Below, piece after piece: positions 8,462-31,017 of a DNA stretch of 64,000 nucleotides. The notes under the pieces were generated by a model. It was not told the DNA's origin, made no database searches, and worked only from the letters and a program-made list of their open reading frames with translations. The position numbers and the translations under genes were made by a program. This DNA comes from Massilia sp. CF038 (lineage in GTDB: Bacteria; Pseudomonadota; Gammaproteobacteria; Burkholderiales; Burkholderiaceae_D), in the NCBI RefSeq assembly GCF_900129765.1, contig NZ_FQWU01000007.1, forward strand, positions 1 to 64,000, given 5' to 3'. How positions within the stretch are numbered: the first letter of the stretch is position 1; each line of letters starts with the position of its first letter.

Positions 8462-8508
8462 GTGTCCGCCAACACCGCGCAAACAGTCCGGCCGGACGCT
8501 GCGGACAC
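8462..8508. promoter_or_regulatory. Putative activator-binding cluster (TGTCCG half-sites) upstream of the ABC exporter
   Basis: GTGTCCGC (8462-8469) and GCGGACAC (8501-8508) form a perfect 8-base inverted repeat. Between them is the 12-base palindrome GTCCGGCCGGAC (8486-8497). Half-site starts at 8463 and 8485 are 22 bases apart, and those at 8493 and 8502 are 9 apart. The cluster is about 50-90 bases upstream of the -24 element at 8554, the usual place for an NtrC-type enhancer. The same half-site and similar spacing recur at 30888-30945. Confidence 0.65.
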
Positions 8509-8553
8509 GTGTTCGTCCATACAAACTTCCTTAATAATCAAGGCTCTTGCAAG

Positions 8554-8569
8554 TGGCACGGTTCGTGCA
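8554..8569 (+). promoter_or_regulatory. Sigma-54 promoter of the ABC exporter operon
   Basis: TGGCACG-GTTC-GTGCA matches the -24/-12 consensus TGGCACG-N4-TTGCA at all positions except one T. The GG and GC dinucleotides are separated by exactly 10 bases. The predicted start near 8580 leaves a short leader of about 23 bases before the adaptor ATG at 8603. A sigma-54 activator gene follows in the same cluster. Confidence 0.78.
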
Positions 8570-8602
8570 TCAGTGGTGGTATTGTCGTCAACGTACACCA
8601 CC

Positions 8603-9871
8603 ATGATCCGCGATACCTCTTCTCAAGATGCTGTGATCCAGGCCCCGCGCGGGCAAGCATTCAAGCGCCGCGCGCTGTTCGGCGGCGGCGCGCTGGCCGT
8701 GCTTGCATTGGCCTTTATGGCCGTCGCGGGCTGGCGTTCAAGCGAGGCATCGGTCAACGGCGCACGCTTGCGCATTGCCGAGGTCACGCGCGGCACCCTG
8801 GTGCGCGACGCCGCCGTCAATGGCCGCATCGTCGCTGCCGTCAGCCCCACGCTGTACTCCACCGCGCCCTCGACGGTCACCCTGAAAGTGGCTGCGGGCG
8901 ACACCGTCAAGCGCGGTCAGGTCCTGGCCGTGCTGGAGTCGCCCGACCTGTCGGACGCGCTGAAACGCGAGCAGTCCAGCTACCAGCAGCTGGAAGCGGA
9001 AGTGGCACGCCAGCAGATCCTGGCGCGCAAGCAGAAGCTGCTGGCCCAGCGCGAAGCCGACACCGCCGAAATCGACCGCCTGTCGGCCCAGCGCACGCTG
9101 GAACGCTACCAGGCCGTGGCCAACGAAGGCGTGATCGCCAAGATCGACTTCCAGAAAGCCAAGGATGCCGTGGCCTCGGCCGAGATCCGCGCGCGCCACG
9201 CCGCCAAGGCTGCCGCCCTCGAGGGCGACGACGTGGGCCTGGCCCTCAAGACCAAGGTCAATGAACTGGACCGCCAGCGCCTGTCCATGGCCAACGCCCA
9301 GCGCCGCGTGGACGAATTGAGCGTGCGCGCGCCGGTGGACGGCTTCATCGGCACGCTGTCAGTGCAGAACCGCAGCGTGGTGGCGGCCAACACCGCGCTT
9401 ATGACGCTGGTCGATCTGTCGCGCCTTGAGGTCGAGCTGGAAGTACCGGAAAGCTATGTGGCCGACATGGGCCTGGGCATGAGCGCCGAAATCCAGCTGG
9501 GCGCCGCCACCGCAACCGGCAAACTCTCGGCGCTGTCGCCGGAAGTGGTGCGCAACCAGGTGCTGGCACGGGTGCGCTTTGACGGCGCCCAGCCCAAGGG
9601 TTTGCGCCAGAGCCAGCGCGTGACGGCGCGGCTGCTGATCGAAGAAAAACCAAACGTGATGCTGGTGGCGCGCGGACCGTTTGTGGAATCCGAAGGCGGC
9701 CGCTTTGCCTACGTGGTGCGCGACGGCGTGGCCGTGCGCACCCCGATCACGCTGGGCGCGACCAGCGTCGGCAGCGTTGAAATTCTGTCCGGCGTCCAGC
9801 CGGGCGACAAGCTTGTCATTGCAGGCACCGACACGTTTGCCAATGCGGCGCGCGTCTCCATCAATAAATAA
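8603..9871 (+). CDS. Periplasmic adaptor of an ABC exporter (MacA/HlyD type)
   Basis: 422 residues. It has a single membrane-spanning segment at about residues 27-45 (ALFGGGALAVLALAFMAVAG). A split biotinyl-lipoyl domain flanks a long alpha-helical hairpin (about residues 115-220, rich in Gln, Glu, Arg and Ala). A beta-barrel and a C-terminal membrane-proximal domain follow. This is the membrane-fusion protein architecture that links an inner-membrane pump to an outer-membrane channel. ATG 8603 is chosen because the predicted sigma-54 start lies just upstream; extending further would place the promoter inside the gene. First gene of the adaptor-ATPase-permease-permease operon. No TolC-like gene is nearby, so the channel must be encoded elsewhere. 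Confidence 0.85.
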   Translation: MIRDTSSQDAVIQAPRGQAFKRRALFGGGALAVLALAFMAVAGWRSSEASVNGARLRIAEVTRGTLVRDAAVNGRIVAAVSPTLYSTAPSTVTLKVAAGDTVKRGQVLAVLESPDLSDALKREQSSYQQLEAEVARQQILARKQKLLAQREADTAEIDRLSAQRTLERYQAVANEGVIAKIDFQKAKDAVASAEIRARHAAKAAALEGDDVGLALKTKVNELDRQRLSMANAQRRVDELSVRAPVDGFIGTLSVQNRSVVAANTALMTLVDLSRLEVELEVPESYVADMGLGMSAEIQLGAATATGKLSALSPEVVRNQVLARVRFDGAQPKGLRQSQRVTARLLIEEKPNVMLVARGPFVESEGGRFAYVVRDGVAVRTPITLGATSVGSVEILSGVQPGDKLVIAGTDTFANAARVSINK

Positions 9872-9891
9872 AACTACCGAAAGGACCTTCC

Positions 9892-10614
9892 ATGCTGCGC
9901 ATGACCAATCTGAGCAAGGTGTACCGTACCCACATGATCGAAACCCACGCGCTGCGCGGGTTCGAGATCCAGGTCAACCAGGGCGAGTTCGTCACCGTGA
10001 CCGGTCCTTCCGGTTCCGGCAAGACCAGCTTTTTGAACATCGCCGGCCTGCTGGAAGAATTCAACGATGGCGAATACGTTTTGGACGGCATCAACGTCAA
10101 GGGCATGGATGACAACGCGCGCTCGCGCCTGCGCAACGAGAAGCTGGGCTTCATTTTCCAGGGCTTCAACCTGATTCCCGACCTGTCGCTGTTCGACAAT
10201 GTCGACGTACCGCTGCGCTACCGTGGCTTCAACGCGGCCGAGCGCAAGGAGCGGATCGAAGACGCGCTCGCCAAAGTGGGCCTGGCCTCGCGCATGAAGC
10301 ATTATCCGGCCGAGCTATCGGGCGGCCAGCAGCAGCGCGTGGCCATCGCGCGCGCACTGGCAGGTTCGCCCAAGCTCTTGCTGGCCGATGAACCGACCGG
10401 CAACCTCGATACGCAAATGGCACGCGGCGTGATGGAGCTGCTGGAGGAAATCAACGCCCAGGGCACCACCATTTTGATGGTCACCCACGATCCGGAACTG
10501 GCGGTGCGCTCGCAGCGCAATGTGCACATCATCGACGGCCAGGTGTCGGACCTGGTGCGCAAGGCGCCCACCCTGTTCGACGCCAAGACCGCTGGCGCCA
10601 GCCACCCTGCCTGA
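9892..10614 (+). CDS. ABC exporter ATP-binding subunit (MacB/LolD family)
   Basis: 240 residues. Walker A GPSGSGKTS is at residues 38-46, followed by Q-loop FQGFNLIPDLS, signature LSGGQQQR, Walker B LLLADEPTGNLD and H-loop MVTHD. The LolD/MacB-type ATPase drives conformational change of FtsX-like permeases rather than classical substrate translocation through the membrane domain. It is 20 bases behind the adaptor, and the first permease follows 10 bases later, so translation is closely linked. Substrate unknown. Confidence 0.9.
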   Translation: MLRMTNLSKVYRTHMIETHALRGFEIQVNQGEFVTVTGPSGSGKTSFLNIAGLLEEFNDGEYVLDGINVKGMDDNARSRLRNEKLGFIFQGFNLIPDLSLFDNVDVPLRYRGFNAAERKERIEDALAKVGLASRMKHYPAELSGGQQQRVAIARALAGSPKLLLADEPTGNLDTQMARGVMELLEEINAQGTTILMVTHDPELAVRSQRNVHIIDGQVSDLVRKAPTLFDAKTAGASHPA

Positions 10615-30694: not shown

Positions 30695-30840
30695 TGTATC
30701 TCCTAACACTCACGCCGAAGAAGGCGGTCCGCCAGCAAAGGTGGCCGCGCATATTTACACCACTATCTGGAACAGCCCATGCATATGCAGGGCCGATAAA
30801 AATCTGCTGAAACGATATCAGCAAAATTGGGACTTGAATA

Positions 30841-30856
30841 CGCAAAGTTTGTGCCA
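30841..30856 (-). promoter_or_regulatory. Sigma-54 promoter of the TldD/TldE operon
   Basis: On the minus strand the sequence is TGGCACA-AACT-TTGCG, a near-perfect -24/-12 element with GG and GC separated by 10 bases. Transcription would begin near 30830, leaving a leader of about 135 bases before the first TldD start at 30694. Apart from this element, the UAS cluster and the divergent promoter, 30695-31060 shows no gene. Confidence 0.82.
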
Positions 30857-30887
30857 CTGTCTAAGTCGTTGATTTTGACAACGCAGG

Positions 30888-30945
30888 GTGTCCGAAGCCG
30901 GTGTCCGGGCTGTCCGATCCGGTGTCCGGCAGCTCTGGCGGACAC
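30888..30945. promoter_or_regulatory. Putative shared activator-binding cluster (TGTCCG half-sites) between divergent sigma-54 promoters
   Basis: TGTCCG occurs at 30889, 30902, 30911 and 30923, and the inverse CGGACA at 30939. The last pair forms an inverted repeat GTGTCCG-N10-CGGACAC. Spacings of 22 (30889 to 30911), 21 (30902 to 30923) and 9 bases (30902 to 30911) resemble those of the cluster at 8462-8508. It lies about 33 bases from the minus-strand -24 element and about 60 bases from the plus-strand one. Confidence 0.68.
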
Positions 30946-31001
30946 GATGTACATATGAGAAAAGCGCTTGACCGGGGCACGTGCATATCCCATCATCGGC
31001 A

Positions 31002-31017
31002 TGGCACAAAAACCGCG
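31002..31017 (+). promoter_or_regulatory. Probable sigma-54 promoter of the exported methyltransferase gene
   Basis: TGGCACAAAAACCGCG has the full TGGCAC -24 block and GG-N10-GC spacing, but CC replaces the usual TT before GC, so it is weaker than the other two. Predicted start near 31028, ATG at 31061. Its place downstream of the half-site cluster supports it. Confidence 0.5.

Follow-up and report, generated by a model that had tools for sequence, protein, structure and literature searches.

Do the promoters around an exporter operon and its two-component regulator in Massilia sp. CF038 form one regulon? The question is raised by positions 1 to 64,000 of contig NZ_FQWU01000007.1 (the window, from a genome of 5.66 Mb). 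The initial annotation proposed that clusters of the half-site TGTCCG/CGGACA beside three sigma-54 promoters place an ATP-binding cassette (ABC) exporter operon, a TldD/TldE (Tld) operon and an exported methyltransferase under the NtrC-type activator encoded behind the exporter. The core of this proposal stands in a corrected form: two promoters rather than three, one of a conserved core target and one of a changing partner, appear to share an arrangement to which the regulator is presumed to bind. We consider it likely that the locus encodes a self-amplifying sigma-54 module that is coupled to the exporter, has accessories that change between lineages and would respond to peptides in the envelope. 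This reading builds on promoter architecture, gene order, co-occurrence and kinase hydropathy, from which regulator binding, signal and substrate are predicted.

The exporter promoter and the genes behind it are arranged as follows:

8463..8507, no strand: half-site cluster of the exporter promoter (from the sequence; similar position before orthologous exporters)
8536..8549, plus strand: integration host factor (IHF)-like site AATCAAGGCTCTTG, between the half-site cluster and the -24/-12 element
8554..8569, plus strand: sigma-54 -24/-12 element TGGCACGGTTCGTGCA of the exporter operon (sequence match and conservation)
8603..9871, plus strand: HlyD-type periplasmic adaptor (Pfam HlyD_D23, HlyD_3)
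9892..10614, plus strand: ABC ATPase (Pfam ABC_tran)
10520..11935, plus strand: MacB/FtsX-type permease 1 (Pfam MacB_PCD, FtsX; the open reading frame overlaps the ATPase gene and its start codon is provisional)
11948..13180, plus strand: MacB/FtsX-type permease 2 (Pfam FtsX, MacB_PCD)
13239..14570, plus strand: NtrC-type response regulator with receiver, AAA+ and Fis-type helix-turn-helix domains (Pfam Sigma54_activat, HTH_8)
14570..15889, plus strand: sensor kinase (Pfam HisKA, HATPase_c; N-terminus by sequence and hydropathy)

The half-site cluster consists of TGTCCG (8463-8468), the imperfect members AGTCCG (8485-8490) and CGGACG (8493-8498), and CGGACA (8502-8507). Exact hexamers are thus found only at 8463 and 8502, and the 5-mer GTCCG/CGGAC at 8464, 8486, 8493 and 8502. 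The IHF-like site is an addition to the earlier account; the IHF consensus is WATCAANNNNTTR, and in AATCAAGGCTCTTG the gap from ATCAA to TTR is one base longer. Matches to the -24/-12 element alone are at chance level (49 found vs. 46.7 expected at up to 2 mismatches, window vs. shuffles). The two exact hexamers are also within chance: among 60 order-1 Markov versions of the window, 39 reached two as their highest count, and four 5-mers were reached in 4 of the 60. Therefore, the case for this promoter rests on conservation.

The activator was searched for in genome contigs and the best 80 loci were retained. The order HlyD-ABC-FtsX-FtsX-regulator-kinase is common to most of them, in Oxalobacteraceae and Xanthomonadaceae, some having extra permease genes, and the nearest named activators among the matches listed are those of M. 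frigida (89% identity) and of a Massilia metagenome-assembled genome (92%). After adding the window and leaving out three loci with no HlyD gene in the stretch (L038, L039, L071), 78 sequences had a HlyD match. Two more with HlyD near the end (L055, L076) were left out, giving 76 promoters with enough upstream sequence, mainly from the same two families. The predicted exporter element is supported by this set: the best -24/-12 element scores at least 25 in 73/76 promoters compared with 0.8% of 2,907 controls, which are 390-bp stretches drawn at random from these loci, and it lies 46-80 bp upstream of the start in 72/76. Such an element together with at least two half-sites, counted here as TGTCC/GGACA, was found in 72/76 promoters and at 0/16 control elements, L043 and L048 with fewer than two half-sites being scored as misses. 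The half-site density averages 3.96 per 130 bp, 17-fold above the 0.236 in 11,504 control windows; 63 of the promoters have at least three half-sites, and most half-sites precede the -24 element by about 45-95 bp. A strict match to the IHF-like pattern ([AT]ATCA[AG]-N4/5-TT[AG], at most 35 bp from the -24 element) was detected in 44/76 promoters, compared with 17 of 1,436 control places (1.2%) and at most 2/76 in 200 shuffles.

The half-site spacings of 9 and 21-22 bases that had been pointed out in the window both recur there. Among the relatives, 9 bases on the same strand is the commonest spacing (30 pairs), but 21-22 is not general. For GGACA-direction pairs the main peak is at 9 bp, with the next peaks near 18-20 and 27-29, which is compatible with a single helix face. 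For TGTCC-direction pairs it is at 12, followed by 29 and 17, and inverted pairs peak at 7, 15, 19 and 27.

The second promoter with this arrangement lies before the Tld operon on the opposite strand:

30889..30944, no strand: half-site cluster of the Tld promoter (TGTCCG at 30889, 30902, 30911 and 30923; CGGACA at 30939)
30862..30874, minus strand: IHF-like site AATCAACGACTTA of the Tld promoter
30841..30856, minus strand: sigma-54 -24/-12 element TGGCACAAACTTTGCG of the Tld operon (sequence match and relatives)
17714..30694, minus strand: Tld operon of 10 genes (Pfam; joint transcription assumed from spacing)
29057-30694, minus strand: TldD, first gene (Pfam)
27704-29041, minus strand: TldE, second gene (Pfam)
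26047-27684, minus strand: TldD, third gene (Pfam)
24697-26034, minus strand: TldE, fourth gene (Pfam)
24064-24690, minus strand: DUF4159 (Pfam)
23057-24154, minus strand: MoxR (Pfam)
22156-23184, minus strand: DUF58 (Pfam)
21182-22159, minus strand: BatA-like (Pfam match below the curated cut-off)
19243-21198, minus strand: DUF4175-like (Pfam)
17714-19366, minus strand: last gene, protein without a Pfam family

The TldD/TldE pair is tandemly duplicated at 24697-30694, and the two TldD copies are 81% alike.

Both half-site clusters that had been reported could be verified. Five TGTCCG/CGGACA hexamers within 60 bp, as in the 56-bp Tld cluster, are unmatched in the 60 Markov versions of the window, where the maximum was three, reached once. 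The predicted Tld element was likewise confirmed in the sequence and in the genus sample of 17 genomes, own genome included. Two intact TldD genes are found in 14/17 genomes (13 of the 16 congeners), and upstream all 14 have a -24/-12 element with 4-6 half-sites no more than 130 bp away. One of these promoters (G007) has TGGT for TGGC and no strict IHF-like match. A low-quality genome with a broken TldD gene (G014) showed its Tld promoter via patterns only, and two genomes without such a TldD (G012, G013) gave one match each that reads like an exporter promoter, judged from the promoter letters only.

Pattern searches give a similar picture when they combine several elements. In the own genome, two CGGAC followed by TGGCAN7TGC gave two matches, which are the exporter and Tld promoters, with one match in the backward control; one CGGAC with TGGCNC gave 75 matches vs. 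78 in the backward control and is useless alone. Across the 17 genomes, the two-CGGAC pattern with the element gave 50 matches (several per promoter), of which 44 read as exporter or Tld promoters, and none in G007. The IHF-like site combined with the element gave 34 matches vs. 0 backward. These include 23 that read as exporter or Tld promoters and 11 elsewhere, of which the own genome has one. The window's exporter promoter is not matched, owing to the extra base in its IHF-like site. Collectively, these results support that the exporter and the Tld operon share a composite promoter, apparently made up of a half-site cluster, an IHF-like site and a -24/-12 element.

The methyltransferase gene, which starts on the other side of the same intergenic region, was the third proposed target:

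30968..30996, plus strand: sigma-70-like promoter of the methyltransferase gene (TTGACC 30968-30973, 17 bp, CATCAT 30991-30996)
31061..31858, plus strand: methyltransferase-like protein with a signal-peptide-like start (weak Pfam matches below cut-offs; sequence)

The string taken for its sigma-54 element, TGGCACAAAAACCGCG at 31002-31017, is present in the window and contains TGGCACA, which would favor a fixed regulon of all three promoters as originally proposed. However, it is not among the matches with up to 2 mismatches, and it has no counterpart in 9 aligned relatives, which have gaps or unlike sequence there. TTGACC is kept in 10/10 aligned TldD-methyltransferase intergenic regions, with GAT[CG]AT 17 bp further on (CATCAT in the window). 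The conserved hexamers and the window-specific string thus argue for a promoter of sigma-70 type with no sigma-54 element; the methyltransferase was rejected as a sigma-54 target, and its putative membership in the regulon is not supported. Additionally, Tld membership itself differs by lineage (see below), and we regard a fixed regulon of all three promoters as very improbable. Beside the methyltransferase gene lies a gene for a trypsin-like protease with PDZ domains (32001-33557).

Whether Tld membership follows the activator was examined in a family sample of 145 genomes (TldD at E ≤ 1e-100, activator at E ≤ 1e-150). TldD is found in 26 genomes, the activator in 38, both in 24 and neither in 105 (Fisher p 1.5e-15). 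Counted by genus, 5 have both, 1 and 3 have one only, and 35 have neither (Fisher p 3e-4), both p values ignoring kinship. The expected co-occurrence with the activator holds for the genes in 24 of the 26 Tld genomes. A Tld-promoter cluster was defined as at least four half-sites, and L177 (contig end) and L100 (the broken gene of G014) were not scored. On this definition, 15 of the 23 scorable genomes with activator and Tld carry a cluster and an element at Tld, G120 not being scorable. No TldD was found in five activator-carrying Janthinobacterium genomes (E ≤ 1e-30). Of the 21 Xanthomonadaceae genomes that carry the activator, 15 encode one or more TldD proteins (63-69% identity), either as a Tld gene pair or as a single TldD, and many of the regions around the TldD start hold CACTTGAC-like strings (read by eye). 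In Xanthomonas chitinilytica (L320, G157), an element-like TGGCACCGATTGTGC lies upstream of TldD, 241 bases from the end of the stretch and with no half-sites.

Several observations weigh against our reading. Part of the co-occurrence of Tld and activator is due to shared ancestry. Eight of the 15 cluster-positive genomes belong to the window's own genus, and outside the genus 7 of 15 score. Loss of half-sites with the activator kept, which the initial annotation had named as a refuting outcome, occurs at Tld in 8 of the 23 genomes (G019, G033, G055, G070, G124, G131, G136, G142), while the exporter cluster is nearly invariant. In the Xanthomonadaceae, a half-site cluster with a -24/-12 element near TldD was found in 0/15 genomes, within 0.9-1 kb round the first TldD start and with one region per genome. 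Half-site spacing differs from promoter to promoter, and 32/76 exporter promoters have no strict IHF-like match, most Xanthomonadaceae among them. Furthermore, the two-CGGAC pattern in the genus gave 22 matches in the backward control vs. the 50 reported above. The eight genomes with the activator and no Tld cluster count against a fixed regulon. The nearly invariant exporter cluster and the varying Tld cluster rather indicate that the exporter is the core target and Tld a lineage-specific member. Of the proposal of one regulon, the shared promoter of exporter and Tld is thus retained, but neither the methyltransferase nor a fixed membership.

The same data bear on who acts at the Tld promoter. 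The regulator might control only its own exporter promoter, with Tld under a different sigma-54 activator that uses a similar site. The genome holds many further candidate sigma-54 activators of NtrC type, which could bind the same sites and so also weigh against our reading, and in G070, G131 and G136 a good -24/-12 element precedes Tld with no half-sites, so another activator is possible there. We nevertheless find this explanation unlikely, since the same half-site words, an IHF-like site and similar distances recur at exporter and Tld promoters across the genus, and the two-CGGAC pattern in the own genome matches these two promoters only. Additionally, a Tld promoter of the exporter kind is found in 0/2 genomes that have Tld but no activator. 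One of these (G042) has no half-sites near TldD. In the other (G092, L192) the Tld element reads AGGCGCAACAATTGG (AGGC..TTGG) with two half-sites, and those of sister species read TGGCACAACAATTGC (TGGC..TTGC). Alternatively, the half-site arrays might bind a repressor or another protein, with the sigma-54 elements activated from elsewhere. Near-direct repeats 7-13 bp apart are indeed not a simple dimer site, but most half-sites, about 45-95 bp before the -24 element, are in the usual position of an upstream activating sequence, and the same words with a -24/-12 element precede other genes in several other genomes. This makes such an explanation improbable.

The proteins fit an exporter-coupled sigma-54 module. 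The regulator has a GAYTGA loop at residue 229 and AAA+ and Fis-type helix-turn-helix domains, as required of an NtrC-type sigma-54 activator. Its relatives in the PDB are NtrC-family regulators, FleQ and ZraR among them, and both the exporter and the Tld promoter have a -24/-12 element with the invariant GG and GC, preceded by upstream sites. The kinase N-terminus has two hydrophobic stretches with few residues between them in 81 sequences (80 loci and the window; hydropathy by eye), and this predicted topology is that of intramembrane-sensing kinases. For TldD, RRxF[LV] lies near the start in all 46 proteins examined, 15 of them from Xanthomonadaceae and 31 from the family, where two of 33 loci were left out. 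RRxF[LV] resembles the signal motif of twin-arginine translocation (Tat), and a cytoplasmic location is the one associated with TldD/TldE metalloproteases. This start suggests that the present TldD is probably Tat-exported. Both TldE proteins of the window are without an RRxFL start, and TldE, if exported at all, would have to travel with TldD.

In the mechanism we propose, the short-loop kinase (14570-15889) would phosphorylate the regulator (13239-14570), which would then bind the TGTCC/GGACA half-site arrays. With IHF presumably bending the DNA, the regulator would activate transcription by sigma-54 RNA polymerase of the exporter operon that includes its own gene (8603-15889), giving a self-amplifying loop, and in the genus and part of the family also of the Tld operon (30694-17714, minus strand). 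Since the kinase is almost without a periplasmic part, it would most likely read the state of the neighboring FtsX/MacB-type exporter or the membrane itself, as BceS does with BceAB. Judged from the protein families found, the system may serve to detect peptides, or compounds resembling them, in the envelope and to remove them, with accessory targets that vary by lineage.

BceR is an OmpR-type response regulator, unlike the regulator described here, which is of NtrC type and works with sigma-54. BceB is a single ten-helix permease, whereas the present locus has two separate MacB_PCD/FtsX permeases and an HlyD adaptor. Given the different regulator, the system may work like a Bce module but is none. 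The short-loop, two-helix type of kinase is shared (81 N-termini, hydropathy by eye). As far as the available parts of the two sources go, the kinase of Bce modules cannot sense alone but responds through the ABC transporter, whose genes are a main target (PMC6978683; PMC5985334), and in BceAB-BceRS of Firmicutes an FtsX-type ABC transporter is likewise encoded with the kinase.

The exporter also resembles MacAB-TolC in its HlyD/MacA-like adaptor, ABC ATPase, MacB periplasmic core and FtsX permease domains. It differs in having the ATPase and two permeases on separate genes and a presumed sigma-54 control of its own, while the accessible part of one article places MacAB of Salmonella and E. 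coli under PhoPQ (PMC5985334). The promoter is reminiscent of that bound by QseF (GlrR) at glmY in Enterobacteriaceae, where the portion of the source at hand gives an upstream activating sequence consensus of TGT-N12-ACA, three sites and IHF (PMC6075780). In the same portion, the likeness extends to a response-regulator sigma-54 activator, several TGT...ACA upstream sites, IHF and an envelope theme. The target there is a small RNA, unlike the exporter and other protein genes here. A QseF-type geometry, in which GGACA is expected 13 bp after TGTCC, was considered and rejected, as one such inverted pair within 45 bp occurs in the 76 promoters. TldD and TldE (PmbA) carry the Pfam TldD/PmbA domains, and TldD is alignable to E. 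coli TldD (5nj5), with HExxxH kept and the zinc motif HESVGH aligned to HEAVGH. They are unlike the known metalloprotease in the RRxFL Tat-like start of TldD and in a tandemly duplicated pair followed by DUF4159-MoxR-DUF58-BatA genes.

A survey with position-specific scoring matrices, as far as its available text goes, puts the FtsX-like permease family under the control of sigma-54 RNA polymerase (PMC12316311). The words TldD, HlyD, MacB, Massilia and Xanthomonad are absent from its main text, and its accessible parts contain no visible link to the present regulator, half-site or Tld. Among the records listed, no open-access PMC title or abstract on the exporter/regulator pair, the exported TldD or the regulon was found, in a search largely confined to non-subscription journals. 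The parts of the system are thus of known kinds, and a link between sigma-54 and FtsX-like permeases is in print in the accessible text of PMC12316311, while the proposed combination and its rewiring were not found in the literature searched.

A similar promoter also precedes other genes. The genomes reached through the loci comprise 21 Xanthomonadaceae and 35 further genomes, some of which may duplicate the genus and family samples; G188, for instance, has the Tld coordinates of G142. In the Xanthomonadaceae, the two-CGGAC-type pattern gave 98 matches vs. 190 in the backward control, so candidates were picked by eye where an IHF-like site and more half-sites were present, and then assessed from the gene that follows. 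A stricter pattern in the 35 further genomes gave 70 matches vs. 30 backward.

In 10 Xanthomonadaceae genomes (L226-L232, L299-L301), a small VTVRP-repeat protein is encoded behind a half-site/sigma-54-type promoter, upstream of a TrmL-like tRNA methyltransferase gene (read by eye). These proteins are 125-163 residues long, have a signal-peptide-like start and contain IVDLPTVTVRPDA-type repeats, three or four per protein. The reading frame lies at 1164-1562 in L226; as found, it starts earlier in L229 and L300, and two residues earlier in L228. Two of the proteins were scanned and had no Pfam match at E ≤ 1. One has 92 homologues (E ≤ 0.001). Among those with a name, "hypothetical protein" prevails, and three differing names all come from one source; two homologue entries carry unrelated precomputed Pfam domains. 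In the genus, VTVRP relatives were limited to weak matches in 3/17 genomes (E ≤ 0.1, best 0.04).

In one Duganella (L293, 297-1926), a composite promoter with an IHF-like site and three half-sites precedes the gene of an S15-like hydrolase that has a tetratricopeptide repeat end and a signal-peptide-like start; the exporter promoter of this genome is about 14 kb away. In four Duganella genomes (L294, L295, L296, L297), a -24/-12-like element with CGGAC pairs lies directly before an M61 peptidase gene, assigned by Pfam for L295 and by 77-93% identity to it for the other three. The start codon lies only 27 bases from the T of TGGC, which would make the message almost leaderless. This case is weaker, with one or two exact half-sites and no IHF-like site. 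Relatives of the L295 protein occur in 8/17 genus genomes (42-43% identity), with no half-site cluster and element in the 500 bp examined, and the own genome has none at E ≤ 1e-60. The idea of a peptide-handling response gains some weight from the exported repeat protein and the S15-like hydrolase, and less surely from the M61 peptidase.

From these partners we tentatively outline a wider possibility, which we hold to be less probable than the module itself: a Gram-negative sigma-54 counterpart of Bce flux-sensing. Here, a sensor-less kinase would read the HlyD/ABC/FtsX exporter and drive its own operon via an NtrC-type regulator, and a cassette of half-sites and -24/-12 element would be fitted by lineage to exported peptide-handling genes. 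These would be Tat-exported TldD/TldE in Oxalobacteraceae, perhaps M61 in Duganella, and in Xanthomonadaceae the VTVRP protein, maybe as a decoy, a substrate or a structural envelope peptide of the exporter. If our main reading of the module is right, one conserved two-component exporter system would span two large, mostly environmental families with a small regulon whose members are readable from DNA alone. It would give a handle on what sensor-less kinases beside Gram-negative FtsX-type exporters detect, on the function of exported TldD/TldE and on the nature of VTVRP-repeat proteins. The Tld operon also offers a test case of regulon rewiring, since a similar operon belongs to the regulon in one lineage but not in another.

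Among the remaining candidates, L302 (G005), where an IHF-like site and a -24/-12 element occur with no half-sites, was left out of the count, and L225, with no clear target gene, was left unproven. The same applies to a DUF418 protein of a Massilia relative (L298, 288-1589), whose gene lies about 210 bp downstream of a -24/-12 element and five half-sites. In Chiayiivirga (L224), two half-sites precede a second HlyD/ABC set of 28% and 52% identity to that of the window, followed by permease-like reading frames (read by eye). In the window itself, a spermidine-synthase-like gene lies downstream of the kinase, after the exporter and regulator genes.

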